Below, one piece after another: positions 12,104 to 51,048 of a stretch of 64,000 nt of DNA. The DNA is taken from the NCBI GenBank assembly GCA_902537615.1, contig CACBBU010000005.1, forward strand, positions 1 through 64,000, written 5' to 3'. The DNA is from an uncultured Alphaproteobacteria bacterium. Lineage in GTDB: Bacteria; Pseudomonadota; Alphaproteobacteria; Methylaequorales; Methylaequoraceae. The notes beneath the pieces were generated by a model that ran no database searches, was not told the origin of the DNA, and saw nothing but the letters and a program-made list of their open reading frames with translations. The translations under genes and the position numbers were made by a program. Position 1 is the first letter of the stretch, and each line of letters opens with the position of its first letter.

Positions 12104-13969
12104 TTAATCAATTATTGTCTTTATGGTTTCAATTACATCCCCAGTCTTGATCATGTTGATGTTATTATTTTTGTATAAATCCTGTGATGAGATGACAGTA
12201 TTCTTAGAGTTACCTACTGGAGCAAATTTATGATGATTTGTGGGTCCAAACAGTGAGATTAGAGGAATTCCACTGCTAGCTATTAAGTGACCGCAGCCAG
12301 TGTCATTTGCAATACCAAACTTACAATCTTTTGAAATATTTATAGTTTTTAAGGGGTTACTAGTTTCTACAATTTTTAGTCCAGGAAAGTGTTTTTTTTT
12401 TAGTATTGAATAAAGTCTTTTTTCTTTTGGGCCTAAAATAAAAATTGGAATATGTTTTTTTTCTTTTATAAATAACCCTATTTTTAAAAAATTATTAATA
12501 TCCCACATCTTCCAATTAACAGAGGCTCCTGGGCATATGACTACTTTTCTTGATGTGTTTGATTTATTCAATAAAGATTCTTTAAATTTTTCAGGAGAAA
12601 AAACATTAGCAAGATTAATTAATTGTTTTGTGAGATTTTTTTCGCCTCTATTTGAGGGAACAAAATCTGATAGCAGGTAATTTGCTGATGATGATATAAA
12701 GATTTTTGTAGGTATGGCTTTAAGTAAAAGTGAAGTAAGAAATCTTTTTTGAGTATCAATTACAATATCATAATTATCGAGTTTTTGTATTTTAAAAAAA
12801 TCTAAAATAGAAGAACCAAATTCTGTTTCATCAACTGAATGAATAATTTTTTCTGCTAATGGCTTTAATCCTCTTTTGAAAATTGAATATCCTTTTCCTG
12901 ACTTCCAAACTATTTCTGCTTGTGGAAATATGTTTTTAAGATGTTTTAAAAAAGGAAACTTTAATAAGGCATCACCAAGAAGGTCCAACCCGACATAGAT
13001 GAGAATTTTTTTTGGCTTATAGTTTAATTTTATTTTTCTAAGGGATTCACCTTTCCAAGTATCAAAGACTGTGAGTCTAAGTAACTCAAGAGATACGTTT
13101 TTCAATATTCTATTACTTATGTACGTTAAAAATAATCTATTAAAAACTGAAACTTTATTGTGTCTTCTTTGCCACGACCAGCATCGAGAAAGAATTTTTA
13201 TTTTACATTTTTTAACTAAACTTTTTTTTACAAATTTATGACTTTCCAAAAAGTTTATTGTTGCTATTGATAGATCATAAAGAAGTTGTCCGTTATTGCT
13301 TATAATTCTATTTTCAATAAATTCTGGAGCCACACATATTAATTTTTGACTCTGTCCAATCTTAAACTTTTTATTACCTTTATTTTTTAGGTGAAATCCT
13401 GCAACTCTCATTGGTAAAGAAAAGTCTTGAACAAAAACTTCATCATCACAACCACCAATAGATTTAAATACTGAGCTTTTAATCATTGAATTACTGGAGC
13501 CTCCCCATCCCCCTGGTAAGAATTTTTCAACAGGATTTTTAATAAGAAAGGCTGGTTGATTGTCCTTTTTAAATTTAAAATCGTTAATATTTTTTTGCCA
13601 ACCCCAATGACCATAGAGAAGATCAAGGTCTAATTTTTCCATTTCTTTTTTCATATAAACTAGTGCGTCAGGTGCAATAATGTCGTCACCATCAACAAAC
13701 TTTAAATAGGTATATTTTACAAATTTAAACGCAGAGTTTACGGCTTTACTAGGACCAGCATTTTTTTGTTTTATATATTTAATGTCTTTATTTTGTGACT
13801 TAATAAATTTCTTAATTACTAATTCTGACTTATCCGTTGATCCGTCATTGATAATAATAAGTTGAGAGTTCCCACTCATTTGTTTAGATATTGTTTCTAA
13901 GGTTTTAGAAATAAACTGTTCTTTATTATAGACAGTCACAATGATTGAGATGCCGTCTCTAAACTTCAT
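12104..13969 (-). CDS. Bifunctional glycosyltransferase: N-terminal GT2 + C-terminal GT9 (heptosyltransferase-like)
   Basis: N-term ISIIVTVYNKEQFISKTLETI...LIIINDGSTDKS...FVDGDD; C-term VVICPGASVNWKMWDI...GIANDTGCGHLIASSGIPLISLFGPTNHHKFAP. Confidence 0.85.
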   Translation of the reverse strand: MKFRDGISIIVTVYNKEQFISKTLETISKQMSGNSQLIIINDGSTDKSELVIKKFIKSQNKDIKYIKQKNAGPSKAVNSAFKFVKYTYLKFVDGDDIIAPDALVYMKKEMEKLDLDLLYGHWGWQKNINDFKFKKDNQPAFLIKNPVEKFLPGGWGGSSNSMIKSSVFKSIGGCDDEVFVQDFSLPMRVAGFHLKNKGNKKFKIGQSQKLICVAPEFIENRIISNNGQLLYDLSIATINFLESHKFVKKSLVKKCKIKILSRCWSWQRRHNKVSVFNRLFLTYISNRILKNVSLELLRLTVFDTWKGESLRKIKLNYKPKKILIYVGLDLLGDALLKFPFLKHLKNIFPQAEIVWKSGKGYSIFKRGLKPLAEKIIHSVDETEFGSSILDFFKIQKLDNYDIVIDTQKRFLTSLLLKAIPTKIFISSSANYLLSDFVPSNRGEKNLTKQLINLANVFSPEKFKESLLNKSNTSRKVVICPGASVNWKMWDINNFLKIGLFIKEKKHIPIFILGPKEKRLYSILKKKHFPGLKIVETSNPLKTINISKDCKFGIANDTGCGHLIASSGIPLISLFGPTNHHKFAPVGNSKNTVISSQDLYKNNNINMIKTGDVIETIKTIID

Positions 13970-25770: not shown

Positions 25771-25790
25771 TGTTACAGTTTTATGACTGT
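25771..25790 (-). promoter_or_regulatory. Pho box upstream of gap-arsJ
   Basis: Minus strand ACAGTCATAAAACTGTAACA, nearly identical to the pstS and porin boxes. Confidence 0.8.
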
Positions 25791-25833: not shown

Positions 25834-25871
25834 TCCACCATGTCCTAATTATACTTTTAGGTCATGATGGA
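25834..25871. repeat. 15-bp imperfect inverted repeat with 8-nt loop (TCCACCATGTCCTAA-N8-TTAGGTCATGATGGA)
   Basis: 13 of 15 positions pair; just 3' of the lysine-rich gene. Confidence 0.7.
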
Positions 25872-25879
25872 TTTAAACA

Positions 25880-26536
25880 CTATTGTTGACTAGGTTCCTC
25901 TTTTTTAGTTGCACTAGTAGGAGATGTGATATCAGTTTTTATATTTATATTTTGAGCGGAAACTTTATCAAGAGAACCATTTGGCTTTGTAGCTTTTAAT
26001 TTGTTTGATTTCGATGGTTTCTTGGGTTTCATCAAACTGATTTTTTTATTCAACTTTTTATTGTTATTTTTTAGTTTGCTTATCGTCTTTTTTGGTTTTT
26101 TTAGTTTGCTCACTAATTTTTTATTAGTATTTTTGAGCTTACTAATTGTCTTTTTTGGTTTTTTTAGTTTGCTCGCTAATTTTTTATTTATATTTTTGAG
26201 CTTACTAATTGTTTTTTTTGGTTTTTTTAATTTACCCTCTAATTTTTTTTTTGACTTTTTTAATATATCAAGTTTTTTAAGAGGTTTGTTTAACTTTATA
26301 ACTTTAGCTTTTAAGTTTGCATTCTTTTTTTTTAAACTTTTAATAGCTTTTTTTGCATCAGATTTCTTTTTGACGCTTTCAATTGCTAAGCAACTTAGAC
26401 CTACAAATTTTGGCAATTTCTTAGATCTTTTTAACTTTTTTGGATCTAGACCAGTTAATTTAGCAAATCTTTTATTTGATATTTTGTTTTTTTTTTCCCA
26501 GCGTTGAAGCTGTTTAGGTTTTGTTAATAATTTCAT
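25880..26536 (-). CDS. Lysine-rich repeat protein with degenerate XRE-like N-terminus
   Basis: 218 aa; LQRWEKKNKISNKRFAKLTGLDPKKLKRSKKLPKFVGLSCLAIESVKKK resembles the nearby XRE protein; central SKLKKPKKTISKLKN repeats. Confidence 0.75.
   Translation of the reverse strand: MKLLTKPKQLQRWEKKNKISNKRFAKLTGLDPKKLKRSKKLPKFVGLSCLAIESVKKKSDAKKAIKSLKKKNANLKAKVIKLNKPLKKLDILKKSKKKLEGKLKKPKKTISKLKNINKKLASKLKKPKKTISKLKNTNKKLVSKLKKPKKTISKLKNNNKKLNKKISLMKPKKPSKSNKLKATKPNGSLDKVSAQNINIKTDITSPTSATKKEEPSQQ
26045..26233 (-). repeat. Three tandem 63-bp (21-aa) in-frame repeats, KLKKPKKTISKLKN[ITN]NKKL..
   Basis: Read from the translation, residues 102-164 of the 25880-26536 CDS. Confidence 0.9.
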
Positions 26537-26578
26537 TAATTTCCTCTCTTTAAATAGTTAAATTATCAGTGCTTATTG

Positions 26579-26595
26579 TACGCACTTATTGCGTA
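26579..26595. promoter_or_regulatory. Putative operator: TACGCA-cttat-TGCGTA palindrome
   Basis: Perfect 6-bp arms; about 43 bp upstream of the lysine-rich gene ATG. Confidence 0.6.
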
Positions 26596-26613
26596 ATGTC
26601 AATATGTTATTAC

Positions 26614-26913
26614 TCAGAAATTCTTAATTATATTATTAATTTCAATTCGATTGAATAATTTGTCATTGGAGGTTTTCTTGAAGTAATCAAGCTGACTATG
26701 GGTTAAGCAAATAGTAATCTTTTTTTCTAGAGTTATCCCATTATTTTCAAAATTACTAGAAGCTTTTAACTTTCCATTAATAATTCTCGAAGTGTACGTA
26801 CAGACTACTTCTGAATTGTGTCTAAAAGAATTATCTGCTTCAATATCTTTAATAAAACCCTCAGAATCATAGAGTGGTCCAATAAAGGTTATGAAAACTA
26901 ACACCCAATTCAT
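26614..26913 (-). CDS. Orphan small protein, possible signal peptide, unknown function
   Basis: 99 aa ORF MNWVLVFITFIGPLYDSEGF...; no recognisable family. Confidence 0.4.
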   Translation of the reverse strand: MNWVLVFITFIGPLYDSEGFIKDIEADNSFRHNSEVVCTYTSRIINGKLKASSNFENNGITLEKKITICLTHSQLDYFKKTSNDKLFNRIEINNIIKNF

Positions 26914-27014
26914 TTATTAACTTTTTTTTTGTCCTGAGTTTTTTTTTTGTTTAATACAAATTGCCAATATACTAAATGTCCAAGCATATAAATCCTTTCA
27001 AAGTTTTATCCACA

Positions 27015-27027
27015 CGCAATATTTGCG
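27015..27027. promoter_or_regulatory. Putative operator: CGCAA-tat-TTGCG palindrome
   Basis: Perfect 5-bp arms in the XRE upstream region. Confidence 0.45.
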
Positions 27028-27040
27028 CACTATAATTAAT

Positions 27041-27063
27041 AAATACGCACCAATTGCGTATTT
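27041..27063. promoter_or_regulatory. Putative operator: AAATACGCA-ccaat-TGCGTATTT palindrome
   Basis: Perfect 9-bp arms with 5-bp spacer, same core as 26579-26595; about 70 bp upstream of the XRE ATG. Confidence 0.65.
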
Positions 27064-27129
27064 GTCAATATTATTTTTTATATTTGTTTGTTTTTATTAT
27101 TTATCTATACTTAAAAACTGGTCGAATTC

Positions 27130-27333
27130 ATGAATAACGAGCAATTCAAAAAATGGAGAAAAAAGCACAATTTGTCTCAATCAGAGGCTGCTATTACCCT
27201 TGGTTTAAAAAGGAGGATGATTCAGTATTATGAAAAAGGAAAAAAGGGGGAGAAAGATGTGAAAATTCCAAAATATATCAAATTAGCTTGTGAAGCCATT
27301 GATCTTAAGAAAAAATTAAAAAAAATGATTTAG
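27130..27333 (+). CDS. Small XRE-family HTH transcriptional regulator
   Basis: FKKWRKKHNLSQSEAAITLGLKRRMIQYYEKG...IPKYIKLACEAI. Confidence 0.85.
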   Translation: MNNEQFKKWRKKHNLSQSEAAITLGLKRRMIQYYEKGKKGEKDVKIPKYIKLACEAIDLKKKLKKMI

Positions 27334-27351
27334 TTAAAAGGAGTAAAATAA

Positions 27352-27894
27352 ATGAGTAAGAGTTTTGTAATGAAAATTGGGGAGTCTTTAGTTGCAGGAG
27401 GGCCTCCAGGAACCGCAGCGGAGCCAGAAGTAGTTATTGGTGAATTAGACGGTCCCTTTGGGACTGCTTTTGCTACTCTTATTGGAAACCAGATCAAAGG
27501 CCATACTAAGGTCCTGGCAATAATGAATACTGATGTTATGGTAAAGCCCGCAACCCTTATGGTTAGCAAAGTTACAGTTAAGGATGATAAATACACCAAT
27601 ATTTTAATGGGAACAGTACAGGGCGCGATTGCTAATGGTGTTTTAGATTCAGTTAAAGAAGGATATATACCCAAAGATAGGGCAAATGATTTGGGAATAA
27701 TAGTTTCTGTCTGGTTAAATCCCTTAGTAGCTAAGGATGAGAGTCTAGATCATAAAATACTTTTTGATATTCATAGGAAGGCAACAACTAATGCTATTAA
27801 AAAAGCTATGACCAATGAACCTTCTATAGATTGGTTGTTAGAAAACCAGGACTCGATTATTCATAAATACTATCAAAAAGAACTAGATAAATAA
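27352..27894 (+). CDS. Formaldehyde-activating enzyme (Fae) family protein, probably non-canonical
   Basis: MKIGESLVAG...VVIGELDGPFGTAFATLIGNQ, VKPATLMVSKVTVK, GAIANGVLDSVKEGYIPKDRANDLGIIVSVWLNP, HRKATTNAIKKAM match the Fae layout; RBS AGGAG upstream; 18 bp after the XRE gene. Confidence 0.8.
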   Translation: MSKSFVMKIGESLVAGGPPGTAAEPEVVIGELDGPFGTAFATLIGNQIKGHTKVLAIMNTDVMVKPATLMVSKVTVKDDKYTNILMGTVQGAIANGVLDSVKEGYIPKDRANDLGIIVSVWLNPLVAKDESLDHKILFDIHRKATTNAIKKAMTNEPSIDWLLENQDSIIHKYYQKELDK

Positions 27895-27895
27895 T

Positions 27896-28008
27896 AGTGT
27901 ATATGCACTTATAATATGTAAGCACAAATTATTATTTAAGTGCATACGCACATTTTTTTCTTTTTATATAATAACTAGTGGCGATTTAAATAAGTGTATA
28001 AGCACTTA
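27896..28008. repeat. Cluster of three related near-palindromes (consensus AGTGYATANGCACTTA)
   Basis: AGTGTATATGCACTTA at 27896, AGTGCATACGCACAT at 27939, TAAGTGTATAAGCACTTA at 27991; between convergent genes. Confidence 0.65.
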
Positions 28009-28009
28009 C

Positions 28010-29407
28010 TTAGATTAGATGCTTTGTGATTATGACTGTGAAGGTTATTAAAACCAAAAGCAAAGAAAGAAAAACGGCAGCACTTCCAAGATCCTTGGCA
28101 CGCTTAGATAAATCATGTTGAGAAAAAGAGATCCTATCAATAGCTGCTTCAACACTAGAGTTAAGAAGTTCAACTATTAATAAAATTAACAAGCTACCAA
28201 TCATTAATATTTTTTCAATTGGAGATGTAGGAAAAAAAAATATGGAGGGAAAAAGAAGTACACTCAATAGAAGCTCTTGCCTGAAAGCGCTTTCCTCTTT
28301 AAAAGCAAAAACAAAACCGGACAGACTATTTATCAATGCAAAAAAAAGTCTTTTAAATCCAGTGTTCTTTTTGTGAGGATTATCATTAAAAATATAAGTT
28401 TTCGGATTTCTTTTAGATGCGATTTGTAAATTTGATTCAAATATACTAGCCACTCGTTCCCACTTAAATTTCTTTGCATGGTTAATTGGCACTGAGGGTT
28501 TAATTTGAATTGCCTTCTCGCAAGCTTTTTGTAAACTTTTATCCAAAACTCCAGCACCACTGTTACCAATTACATTTAGAGGACCTGAAACGGGAAAAGC
28601 TGCTACAGGAAGCCCACATGCCATAGCTTCAAGAATAACAAGGCCAAAGGTATCAGTTTTACTAGGAAAAACAAAAAGATCGGCTTTTCCATAAAGATTA
28701 GGAAGTTCTTTGGGCGACTTTTGTCCAAAAAACCTAACATTAGGGTATTTTTTTTCCAATTTACGTTTATCCGGACCATCACCAACTACCCATTTGTCAC
28801 AATTAATATTGAGACTAAGGAATTCTTCAAGATTTTTTTCAACAGCAACGCGTCCAACATTTATCAAAATTGGCCTGGAATTTTTAATTTTTTTTTTTGG
28901 TGGCTTAAACAAGCTTGTATCAACTCCTCGAGGCCATTCTGTTGTGTTTTTAATACCCCAATCACTTAATTCCTCCATAATAGATTTAGTTGGTGTTAAA
29001 ATTTTGTAAGCTTTATTGTGAAACCATCTCAAGTAGCTGTAACTTAAAGAAAGTGGTAATCTTGACCTTTCATAAATATATTCCGCAAATCGTGTATGAA
29101 AAGATGTCGTATAAGTAAAACCATTTTTTACAACAAAATTCCTAGCAGCAAGGCCAAGGGGACCCTCCGTTACAATATGAATAGCATCCGGTAAAAAGTC
29201 TTTGATCATTTTTTTTACTTTATTGTAAGGAAATAAAGCAAGACGAATCTCCGGATATGTGGGACAGGGAAAAGTATTGAAAAGGTTTGGAGTAATCATT
29301 TGAACATGGTGGCCTCTTTTTTCTAGTATTCTTTTAGTATGACTTAAGGTGTGAACAACGCCGTTGACTTGGGGCATCCACGCATCTGAAATTATGGATA
29401 TTTTCAT
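28010..29407 (-). CDS. GT4 glycosyltransferase (Agt-like, diacylglycerol-glycosylating) fused to C-terminal DgkA-type diacylglycerol kinase domain
   Basis: N-term SIISDAWMPQVNGVVHTL...GRVAVEKNLEEF...SKTDTFGLVILEAMACGLPVAAFPVSGP; C-term FKRLFFALINSLSGFVFAFKEESAFRQELLL...IVELLNSSVEAAIDRISFSQHDLSKRAKDLGSAAVF. Confidence 0.88.
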   Translation of the reverse strand: MKISIISDAWMPQVNGVVHTLSHTKRILEKRGHHVQMITPNLFNTFPCPTYPEIRLALFPYNKVKKMIKDFLPDAIHIVTEGPLGLAARNFVVKNGFTYTTSFHTRFAEYIYERSRLPLSLSYSYLRWFHNKAYKILTPTKSIMEELSDWGIKNTTEWPRGVDTSLFKPPKKKIKNSRPILINVGRVAVEKNLEEFLSLNINCDKWVVGDGPDKRKLEKKYPNVRFFGQKSPKELPNLYGKADLFVFPSKTDTFGLVILEAMACGLPVAAFPVSGPLNVIGNSGAGVLDKSLQKACEKAIQIKPSVPINHAKKFKWERVASIFESNLQIASKRNPKTYIFNDNPHKKNTGFKRLFFALINSLSGFVFAFKEESAFRQELLLSVLLFPSIFFFPTSPIEKILMIGSLLILLIVELLNSSVEAAIDRISFSQHDLSKRAKDLGSAAVFLSLLLVLITFTVIITKHLI

Positions 29408-31853: not shown

Positions 31854-33122
31854 TTATTGCAACAAGTTAGGGCTATTAGTTTGAAATGTAACTAAAAATT
31901 TAGAACCTTTTCCGATTTCTGATTCAATGTGAAAATTAGCATTATGACGATTTAAAATATGCTTAACTATCGATAAGCCAAGACCTGTATTACCTGAATT
32001 TCTTGAACGAGAGGGATCGACTCTAAAAAATCTTTTTGTTAAAAGAGGAATATTTTGAGTTGTAACACCAATGCCAAAGTCCTCAACGGTTAAATTTACA
32101 ACGTCTTTAATAATCTTGATACTTACCTCTATTGGTTTCTTTGATTGACTATGTGTAATGGCGTTTTCAATAATATTAAAAAAAACCTGATTAAGCTCTG
32201 ATTCATCGCCGGTTATAAAAATTTCTTTTTTTGGAATTAAAAACTTACAATCAATTCGTTTAAATAATTTTCTTTCCTTACAAATTTTTTGAACGTTTTT
32301 AAGAATATCGGTTAAATTTACTTTTTCATCAGGTGGACTAAATTCAGTTCTCTCAATTCGCGATAAAGATAGTAAGTCATTCACAAGTCTTGACATTCGC
32401 TCAGCTTCGTTACCCATAGTTTTTAAAAAACTTTCTTTTATATTTTTTGTAGTGTTTTTTTCTGATAGAAGAGTTTCACAATACCCAATAATCACAGAAA
32501 TAGGGGTTTTTAGCTCATGACTGGCGTTAGCTATAAAATCTTTTTGCAGGTTTTGTAAATTATGTTCTGCAGTTGTATCAAAGAGTCTAATAAAACTTAA
32601 TTTATTTTTACCCACATCTCTGCTCCCAGAAATCCAAATTTTATAAATTCTTTCGGATGGATAAATCAAGTCTACTTCTTTTTCAATTGGTTTTTTCTTT
32701 TTTTGTGATTCATCAATAAGATCACTAAGTTCAGGTATTCTGAGAACAGAAAAAATATTTTTGTTTTTAATATTTTCTCCAAGAAGTTGTCCACTTGCTG
32801 AATTAAACTCTATAACTTGAAGACGCTGATCTATAATTAAGAGGGGATCGGGAAAATGTTGAAAAAAATAATTAAAGAAAAAAACCCTTAATTGTTCAAT
32901 CCTGTAGTTATCCTGATATTTTTTTAAAATACTATTTAAGTTAAAAATTATGGGTTCGTATAATTTAAAAAAAAATAACCGAGAGCTTTTGATTGGTTTG
33001 CCTGAAAAATTCTGTAAATTTTTAATTACACTTCTAAGATCTTTTAAGAAAAGAAAGATAAAAAGTAGACATACTAGTAATATAAATATGAATACGATAA
33101 TTATATCTTTATGAACAAACAT
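31854..33122 (-). CDS. phoR: Phosphate regulon sensor histidine kinase PhoR
   Basis: PAS region, FIANASHELKTPISVIIGYCETL, NIIENAITHS, GNTGLGLSIVKHILNRH. Confidence 0.87.
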   Translation of the reverse strand: MFVHKDIIIVFIFILLVCLLFIFLFLKDLRSVIKNLQNFSGKPIKSSRLFFFKLYEPIIFNLNSILKKYQDNYRIEQLRVFFFNYFFQHFPDPLLIIDQRLQVIEFNSASGQLLGENIKNKNIFSVLRIPELSDLIDESQKKKKPIEKEVDLIYPSERIYKIWISGSRDVGKNKLSFIRLFDTTAEHNLQNLQKDFIANASHELKTPISVIIGYCETLLSEKNTTKNIKESFLKTMGNEAERMSRLVNDLLSLSRIERTEFSPPDEKVNLTDILKNVQKICKERKLFKRIDCKFLIPKKEIFITGDESELNQVFFNIIENAITHSQSKKPIEVSIKIIKDVVNLTVEDFGIGVTTQNIPLLTKRFFRVDPSRSRNSGNTGLGLSIVKHILNRHNANFHIESEIGKGSKFLVTFQTNSPNLLQ

Positions 33123-49712: not shown

Positions 49713-51048
49713 ATGTATCAATCTTTCTTTGTAAAAACATACGGCTGTCAAATGAATCAATATGACTCTGAAAAAATTGATGAGTTACTTGTTCATAATG
49801 GGTTTAAAAAAGCTCAAAACTTGGAGATGTCTGATGTTGCAATATTAAACACATGTCACATTAGAGAGAAAGCAAGTGAAAAATTTTACTCTGATTTAGG
49901 AAGATTATCAGTTTATAAAAGAAATAAAGAAAAGCTTGGAGAAAAAATGCAGATTGTTGTTATGGGATGCGTTGCCCAAGCAGAGGGTGAGGAGGTAATA
50001 AAAAGAAATACACTTGTGGACTATGTTATTGGACCTCAAAATATACAATCTATTCCTGAATTATTGAGGACAAAATCAAAAGAGACAATACATACAAACT
50101 TTTTGTGTGAACAAAAATTTAGTTCCTTTCCAAAATCTTTTCTTGGGGGGGGCCTCTAGGCAAATTACAATTCAAGAGGGCTGTGATAAATTTTGCTCTT
50201 TTTGTGTAGTCCCTTATACAAGAGGGAATGAATATTCCAGGTCAGTGGAGGAGATTTTTGCCGAAGCAAAAAATTTAGTTGAAAATGGTGCTTTAGAAAT
50301 AAATCTTCTTGGTCAAAACGTAAGTTCATACAAGTCATCTATTTTTGAGAAATCAGAAAAAAAGCAAGTAGATTTGGCGAAGCTCTGTAATATTTTATCA
50401 TCTTTGCCTGAGTTGAAAAGGATACGATATATAACCTCACACCCTTCAGATATTAACGATGAATTAATTTTAGAACATAAAAATAATAAAAAGTTAATGC
50501 CATTTCTTCATTTGCCTGTTCAGTCTGGTTCAAACAAAATTTTAAAAAAAATGAACAGGAAGTATTCCAAAGAAAACTATATTGACTTAATCAATAAAAT
50601 TAAATGTGAAGTAAAAAATATGGCCTTTTCCTCAGATTTTATTGTTGGTTATCCTGGAGAAACAAATAACGACTTTGAAGATACGTTAGACCTAATTAAC
50701 AAAGTGGGTTTTGCAAGTTCGTATTCATTCAAATATTCTCCAAGGCCTGGAACACCTGCTTCATTGATTAAAAACCAGATTAATGACGAAATTTTAGATA
50801 AAAGATTAAATAAAATACAAAAAATACTAAATGATCAGCAAAAAAAATTTAATGAGACCTTTTTAGAAAAGGAAATTGATATTTTATTTACAAATTTAGG
50901 AAAAAAAAATAACCAATATGTTGGCAGAACAGCTTTTTTGCAGCCTGTACATGTAATTTCTTCAAAAGATTTAGTAGGGAAAATTCTAAAAATTAAAATA
51001 GAAAGATTGACCTCTTTCTCATTTCATGGAAAAATTTTAAGTTCATAA
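49713..51048 (+). pseudogene. miaB: tRNA-2-methylthio-N6-dimethylallyladenosine synthase MiaB, split by a frameshift at a G8 tract (50145-50152)
   Basis: ORF 49713-50159 (KTYGCQMNQYDSEKI...) and ORF 50107-51048 (ITIQEGCDKFCSFCVVPYTRGNEYSR...) are the N- and C-terminal parts of one MiaB; removing one G restores SFLGGASRQITIQEGC. Confidence 0.85.

Follow-up and report, generated by a model that had tools for sequence, protein, structure and literature searches.

A mobile XRE-o99-LYS cassette with a shared set of putative operators in the phosphate-uptake region of an open-ocean methylotroph

Flexible phosphate islands have been described in HIMB59 (fGIp-A to H), where each keeps a fixed genomic position, contains the pst operon with phoBR and carries a low-phosphate cargo (ppk, ppx, SixA, diacylglycerol kinase, glycosyltransferase) that varies within genera (PMC10734472). 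TMED127/Methylaequorales are marine methylotrophs with small genomes; in one member, AG-892-F10 (G015), at a Sargasso Sea station, pstS, a proteorhodopsin gene, a DoxX-like gene and two hypothetical genes, CDS.256 and CDS.257 (34% lysine), all exceed 10,000 TPM (PMC12542740). The two hypothetical genes are among the seven most transcribed of that genome, and their homologs are confined to TMED127 (PMC12542740). Methylotrophs may also carry divergent Fae paralogs, Fae2 and Fae3, beside a true Fae (PMC5023235, PMC3728764), and in Methyloversatilis deletion of fae2 or fae3 caused no growth phenotype, fae3 being induced on methylamine (PMC5023235). Small XRE control proteins (HipB, the C-proteins of restriction-modification systems, Aca1, NE0471) are short HTH proteins with palindromic operators in their own promoters. 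Histone H1-like lysine-rich bacterial proteins, such as AlgP and Hc1, have lysine-rich repeats and are presumed to bind polyanions.

The window analysed here is a 64,000-nucleotide stretch of contig CACBBU010000005.1 (assembly GCA_902537615.1). Its host is a TMED127/Methylaequorales bacterium, an open-ocean methanol eater; we take the family of the analysed genomes (f1) to be TMED127 through its link with AG-892-F10. Within its phosphate-uptake region, an earlier note had described a 2.1-kb islet containing an XRE regulator, a Fae-like protein, a lysine-rich XRE-derived protein (here LYS) and repeated palindromes. The genes and sites lie where that note had placed them, and XRE-fae is indeed the sole plus-strand operon in the interval from the gene at 12104 to that at 33122; the gene list omitted a 99-aa ORF, o99, and a conserved 25-aa leader ORF (26910-26987). 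Pho boxes stand upstream of pstS, gap, plcP/agt and the porin gene, and none was found in 25860-28009. The islet is in fact three things: an XRE-o99-LYS cassette, a resident Fae paralog and a separate set of GTGYATANRCAC palindromes. The cassette spans about 1.3-1.5 kb, with LYS and the leader ORF-o99 pair read leftward and XRE rightward. The features are as follows.

25771-25788, minus strand: closest Pho box, with one mismatch and facing gap; the cassette is located between this box and fae.
25834-25871, no strand: inverted repeat just downstream of LYS, read from the sequence (arms 25834-25848 and 25857-25871).
25880-26536, minus strand: LYS, 218 aa, of which 34% lysine; a head resembling XRE but lacking the recognition helix is followed by a lysine-rich coiled coil and a disordered, conserved peptide at the C-terminus.
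26575-26602, minus strand: candidate LYS promoter, TTGACA-N16-TACAAT (11/12), whose spacer contains putative operator ACGCACTTATTGCGT (26580-26594), a site conserved in g1, g7 and g8.
26614-26913, minus strand: o99, a 99-aa ORFan known in this family only.
26910-26987, minus strand: leader ORF, 25 aa (MLGHLVYW...), its stop overlapping the o99 start; conserved in g1, g7, g8 and g10.
27009-27036, plus strand: candidate XRE promoter, TCCACA-N16-TATAAT, with putative operator O1 (27014-27028), conserved, in the spacer.
27040-27068, minus strand: candidate o99 promoter, TTGACA-N17-TATTTA, weak -10, with putative operator O2 (27045-27059) in the spacer.
27130-27333, plus strand: XRE, 67-aa HTH_3 regulator (Pfam HTH_3, E=1.8e-6), probably an autorepressor.
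27352-27894, plus strand: Fae-like gene (Fae2/Fae3-type), 18 bp behind XRE (PF08714, E=7e-60).
27897-27908, 27940-27951 and 27994-28005, no strand: three GTGYATANRCAC palindromes between the convergent fae and agt stops.

We compared the 24 family genomes whose assemblies contain all or some of a Pho locus with fae. These loci lie between pst and phoR-mutS, at the same genomic position across relatives and with variable cargo. XRE is present in 14 of them and absent from ten, two of which (G007, G013) still have a piece of the XRE 3' end immediately upstream of fae. On every contig long enough to show it, o99 accompanies XRE, and the pair is always divergent. LYS stands beside the pair in g1, g7 and g8, and in g10 its start falls at the contig edge. 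At the position of the inverted repeat downstream of LYS, g7, g9 and g4 have a stronger hairpin; an Rfam search gave no match. Within genus g7, dN/dS is low for XRE (0.05), o99 (0.13), LYS (0.17), the Fae-like gene (0.07) and the leader (0.23, from few changes), suggesting that all five are under purifying selection.

The islet had been thought to break the Pho logic of its surroundings. The comparison contradicts this: in g7 and g8 the cassette occurs alongside the low-phosphate genes ppk-arsJ-gap and agt-plcP, and in g2, where the XRE-o99 pair is inverted relative to fae, a triple Pho box points at XRE. With the same position across relatives, a pst operon and a variable cargo, the locus is best read as a flexible phosphate island like those of HIMB59 (PMC10734472). 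A link of the cassette itself to phosphate starvation is suggested mostly by position, as a Pho box adjoins the cassette in g2 only. Eight genomes lack both fae and phoR, but an all-or-nothing island was rejected as the explanation: mutS is also missing in seven and partial in the eighth, so the region is probably unassembled and these genomes are uninformative. Some observations concern the cargo and the window at large. In g2 a SixA-like phosphohistidine phosphatase gene and ppx follow the XRE-o99 pair, in place of LYS (L051, 3239-3763). The agt glycosyltransferase and diacylglycerol kinase domains share a single ORF here (28010-29407) and form two separate ORFs in g8. A miaB-like gene (49713-51048) is split into two overlapping ORFs (49713-50159 and 50107-51048) by a frameshift, either real or from the assembly.

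Does the islet move as a unit, as the earlier note had asked? Two g9 genomes contain a decayed cassette, in which the 3' part of LYS is joined to XRE sequence by internal deletions and which ends beside the 3' end of tRNA-Ser(GGA). Its DNA is 92-95% identical to that of g7 over most of its length, against 64-76% for the genes common to g7 and g9; MarC, encoded next to the g9 cassette, is about 50% identical as a protein between the two. Such a discrepancy indicates horizontal transfer between genera. The high identity starts just past the position of the gap Pho box and ends at the XRE end, limits that coincide with the cassette edges. By this comparison XRE-o99-LYS moved as a unit to a tRNA-Ser site, whereas fae has its place in the Pho locus whether the cassette is there or not. 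A weaker case comes from g4, where the 3' end of LYS is 96-99% identical to g7 and adjoins pstS; here the sequence stands at the end of its contig, and contamination of the genome is estimated at 4%. In g12, the XRE 3' end and fae are 95% identical to g7 over 639 bp (L046 8126-8764 versus L044 4077-4709) and the adjoining genes 64-69%, suggesting that this piece recombined between genera. Neither the cassette nor the edges of the g9 insertion showed a recombinase or terminal repeats, as would mark an autonomous mobile element; other genomes have no tRNA near MarC, so there is no empty tRNA-Ser site to compare. A viral origin was rejected: viral contigs contained no relatives of XRE, o99, the Fae-like protein or LYS, and phages none of o99.

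The earlier note had counted at least five related palindromes. Six sites are present, far beyond chance, but they represent two different motifs. One, ACGCA-N5-TGCGY, occurs at 26580, 27014 and 27045; ACGCANNNNNTGCGY gave five strand-matches (three sites) in the window and none in 100 shuffles. Each of the three sites lies in a -35/-10 spacer, and in g1, g7 and g8 they keep fixed distances from the fae start (LYS operator -761 to -772; O1 -332 to -338; O2 -301 to -307); in g10 they are degenerate. The -10 of the o99 promoter reads TATATT in g7 and g8 (TTGACA-N17-TATATT). Since a general scan of the region found promoter-like sites no commoner than chance, we give weight to the conserved -35/-10 geometry and not to any single match. 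This operator-in-spacer arrangement is what a repressor would use. XRE scores 28.3 bits against the HTH_3 cut-off of 23 and is 70-82% identical across genera with an almost invariant recognition region; as in autoregulated HTH_3 repressors, a palindrome (O1) overlaps its own promoter. Conservation of genes, sites and spacing across genera points to local autorepression, with XRE as the probable repressor. A perfect DnaA box, TTATCCACA (27006-27014, conserved in g1, g7, g8 and g10), was not retained as an element of its own: the -35 of the XRE promoter falls within it, and one copy per window is the chance expectation.

In a scan of the 1.23-Mb assembly, GTGYATANRCAC occurred at its three places only, and ACGCAN5TGCGY at the three islet sites and once inside an ORF of more than 1000 aa. 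The ORF concerned (G000:C1:158831, L060), giant and repeat-like, is open across a 3-kb locus and holds the only other exact copy. The second motif, GTGYATANRCAC, gave four strand-matches (three sites) in the window and none in 100 shuffles. It is kept after fae in XRE-less g3 and g7 genomes and missing in XRE-bearing g8 genomes; being decoupled from XRE, it would belong to another factor. RNA hairpins were discarded as an explanation, as variants such as GTGCATACACAC would break the stem, and a protein site is more likely. In several genera the motif stands 0-2 nt past the fae stop, between convergent genes (L085, L087, L089, around 1501), and in g7 a single GTGTATATACAC also occurs in the hemC-tsaD intergenic gap.

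The Fae-like gene is found in all 24 assembled loci and, where the flanks are readable, is bordered by pst (or gap/arsJ) and, at its other end, by porin-phoR-mutS. Because it is there with or without the cassette, we regard it as a resident of the Pho locus, separate from the mobile cassette. Its product passes the Fae models (PF08714, 202 bits; TIGR03126, 135 bits against a cut-off of 118). The histidine of the AHIDL motif is catalytic in Fae; the true Fae of the same genome keeps it, and the Fae-like protein has Glu at this position. Fae paralogs of this same GGPPGTAAEPEV type are widespread in beta- and gammaproteobacterial methylotrophs. In some gammaproteobacteria (L143, L145, L156, L174, L176) this type lies near phoB/phoR-like genes, which may reflect a common ubiA neighbourhood only. 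Several cassette-free genomes have Pho boxes 90-170 bp upstream of fae, but these face pstS or gap, and membership of fae in the Pho regulon is for that reason unproven.

What might LYS and o99 be? A profile alignment relates LYS to XRE (E=2e-6, 36% identity); nine residues, at the recognition helix, fall in a gap. In the structure model, an HTH-like head, whose best structural neighbours are HipB, C-proteins and Aca1, is followed by a long coil and a disordered tail that holds the conserved peptide GSLDKVS(T/A)QNINIKTDIT. LYS resembles an XRE paralog deprived of the recognition helix and extended by a lysine-rich coiled coil. Judging from composition and ancestry, its most likely function is bulk binding of DNA or polyphosphate, a proposal that we make tentatively. 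For o99, profile, viral and phage searches gave no convincing relative outside the family, and Foldseek, with a model of moderate confidence, no credible match; HMMER and Foldseek thus give no function, and no trustworthy Pfam, PHROG or PADLOC match links it to a toxin, effector or defence family. A weak o99 match in G244 was judged spurious, a short piece in a GC-richer unrelated coding sequence.

Both genes can be matched to the transcribed pair of AG-892-F10, a sister lineage. There, LYS (205 aa, 34.1% lysine; contig 1, 235001-235618) directly follows o99 (102 aa; 234606-234911) in contig order, is the sole ORF above 30% lysine (ORFs of at least 60 aa, first 240 kb) and has an ORF index of 248-251 when ORFs are counted roughly, with a minimum of 60 or 50 aa. 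On the basis of composition, order and position, though not by accession, CDS.257 is almost certainly LYS and CDS.256 o99. Histone-like or nucleoid-associated proteins are abundant, basic and DNA-binding; LYS is basic (34% Lys) and, if it is CDS.257, reported as highly transcribed, and might be of this kind.

Taken as a whole, the locus is probably an XRE-limited mobile cassette in a phosphate island, with LYS, more tentatively, an abundant polyanion binder and o99 an ORFan. XRE would bind the three ACGCA-N5-TGCGY operators, each in a -35/-10 spacer, and so limit its own transcription, with fae behind it, as well as the two strong promoters of o99 and LYS. LYS would derive from an XRE-type protein by loss of the recognition helix and gain of a 34%-lysine coiled coil, and would most likely serve, in large amounts, to bind DNA or polyphosphate irrespective of sequence; the LYS and o99 products would be made in bulk alongside pstS, as suggested for AG-892-F10 in the Sargasso Sea. 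A bolder proposal is that LYS is a new kind of abundant bacterial polyanion binder, spread among ocean methylotrophs on a phosphate island, under the control of the repressor from which it arose, and produced in large amounts when phosphate runs short, for polyphosphate or the chromosome; this we consider conceivable and rather speculative.

The main rival to bulk polyanion binding is that LYS is chiefly a regulator, forming mixed dimers with XRE that relieve repression and so create a switch with positive feedback. The same operator motif at LYS as at o99 and XRE would suit such an anti-repressor, as would an XRE-like head that lacks just about nine recognition-helix residues; yet 34% lysine over 150 residues and more than 10,000 TPM would be needless in a regulator, and the C-terminal peptide is conserved separately. 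We regard this role as unlikely. The unity proposed by the earlier note, with XRE, the Fae-like protein, LYS and all palindromes as one regulatory system, could draw on the 18 bp that separate fae from XRE here, on their closeness in g7, g8 and g10, and on the g12 segment, which implies that the two can move together. Synteny largely refutes it, since ten of the 24 loci have fae without XRE, g2 has XRE elsewhere than upstream of fae, and the GTGYATANRCAC class is kept without XRE, making this version very doubtful. What remains of the proposed self-contained unit is XRE, o99 and LYS with their own set of operators, a combination found in several genera; the Fae-like gene and GTGYATANRCAC fall outside it.

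Could the cassette be kept for reasons other than phosphate, as an accessory defence, exclusion or toxin-antitoxin-like unit under an XRE control protein? XRE is of the small control-protein type, the LYS head resembles HipB, C-proteins and Aca1, the leader peptide and o99 are small ORFans, and the cassette is mobile between genera, sits beside a tRNA gene and is decaying in g9. We nevertheless consider this improbable, because o99 matches no defence or toxin family, XRE and LYS give weak HTH/coiled-coil matches only, no viral or phage relatives were found, steady and very high transcription fits a toxin poorly, and the cassette travels with low-phosphate genes. Lanthanide scavenging for the XoxF methanol dehydrogenase, suggested in general terms for highly transcribed unknown genes (PMC12542740), would agree with the high transcription of LYS and o99 alongside xoxF5 (PMC12542740). 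It seems highly improbable, as the genes sit in a phosphate locus, a lysine-rich protein has the wrong charge for metal cations and, allowing for incomplete assemblies, many genomes of the same methylotrophic family lack them (e.g. G008, 93% complete).

Until now, nothing was known of the context of two genes reported as highly transcribed in an abundant order of surface-ocean methylotrophs. If the identity of CDS.256 and CDS.257 holds, both are placed in a mobile, probably XRE-controlled cassette in a phosphate island, with a likely regulator and operators named, and this placement speaks against their being central to the metabolism of lanthanides or methanol. The published account of AG-892-F10 gives the pair no context, regulator or mobility (PMC12542740). 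LYS also illustrates clearly how a relative of a repressor can become a lysine-rich protein of apparently structural role. It shares lysine-rich repeats and presumed polyanion binding with histone H1-like proteins and differs from them in its XRE-derived head, its coiled-coil repeats and the lack of a sequence family match. XRE resembles the small control proteins in its size and in the palindrome of its own promoter, but would control two more promoters, one of them that of its own recognition-helix-less paralog. Like Fae2 and Fae3, the Fae-like protein is a divergent paralog beside a true Fae, of either the Fae2 or the Fae3 type; unlike theirs, its gene lies in the Pho locus throughout this family. 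Finally, the island shares its fixed position, pst operon with phoBR and variable low-phosphate cargo with those of HIMB59 (PMC10734472), but belongs to another alphaproteobacterial order and carries arsJ-gap, plcP, the Fae paralog and the XRE-o99-LYS cassette.
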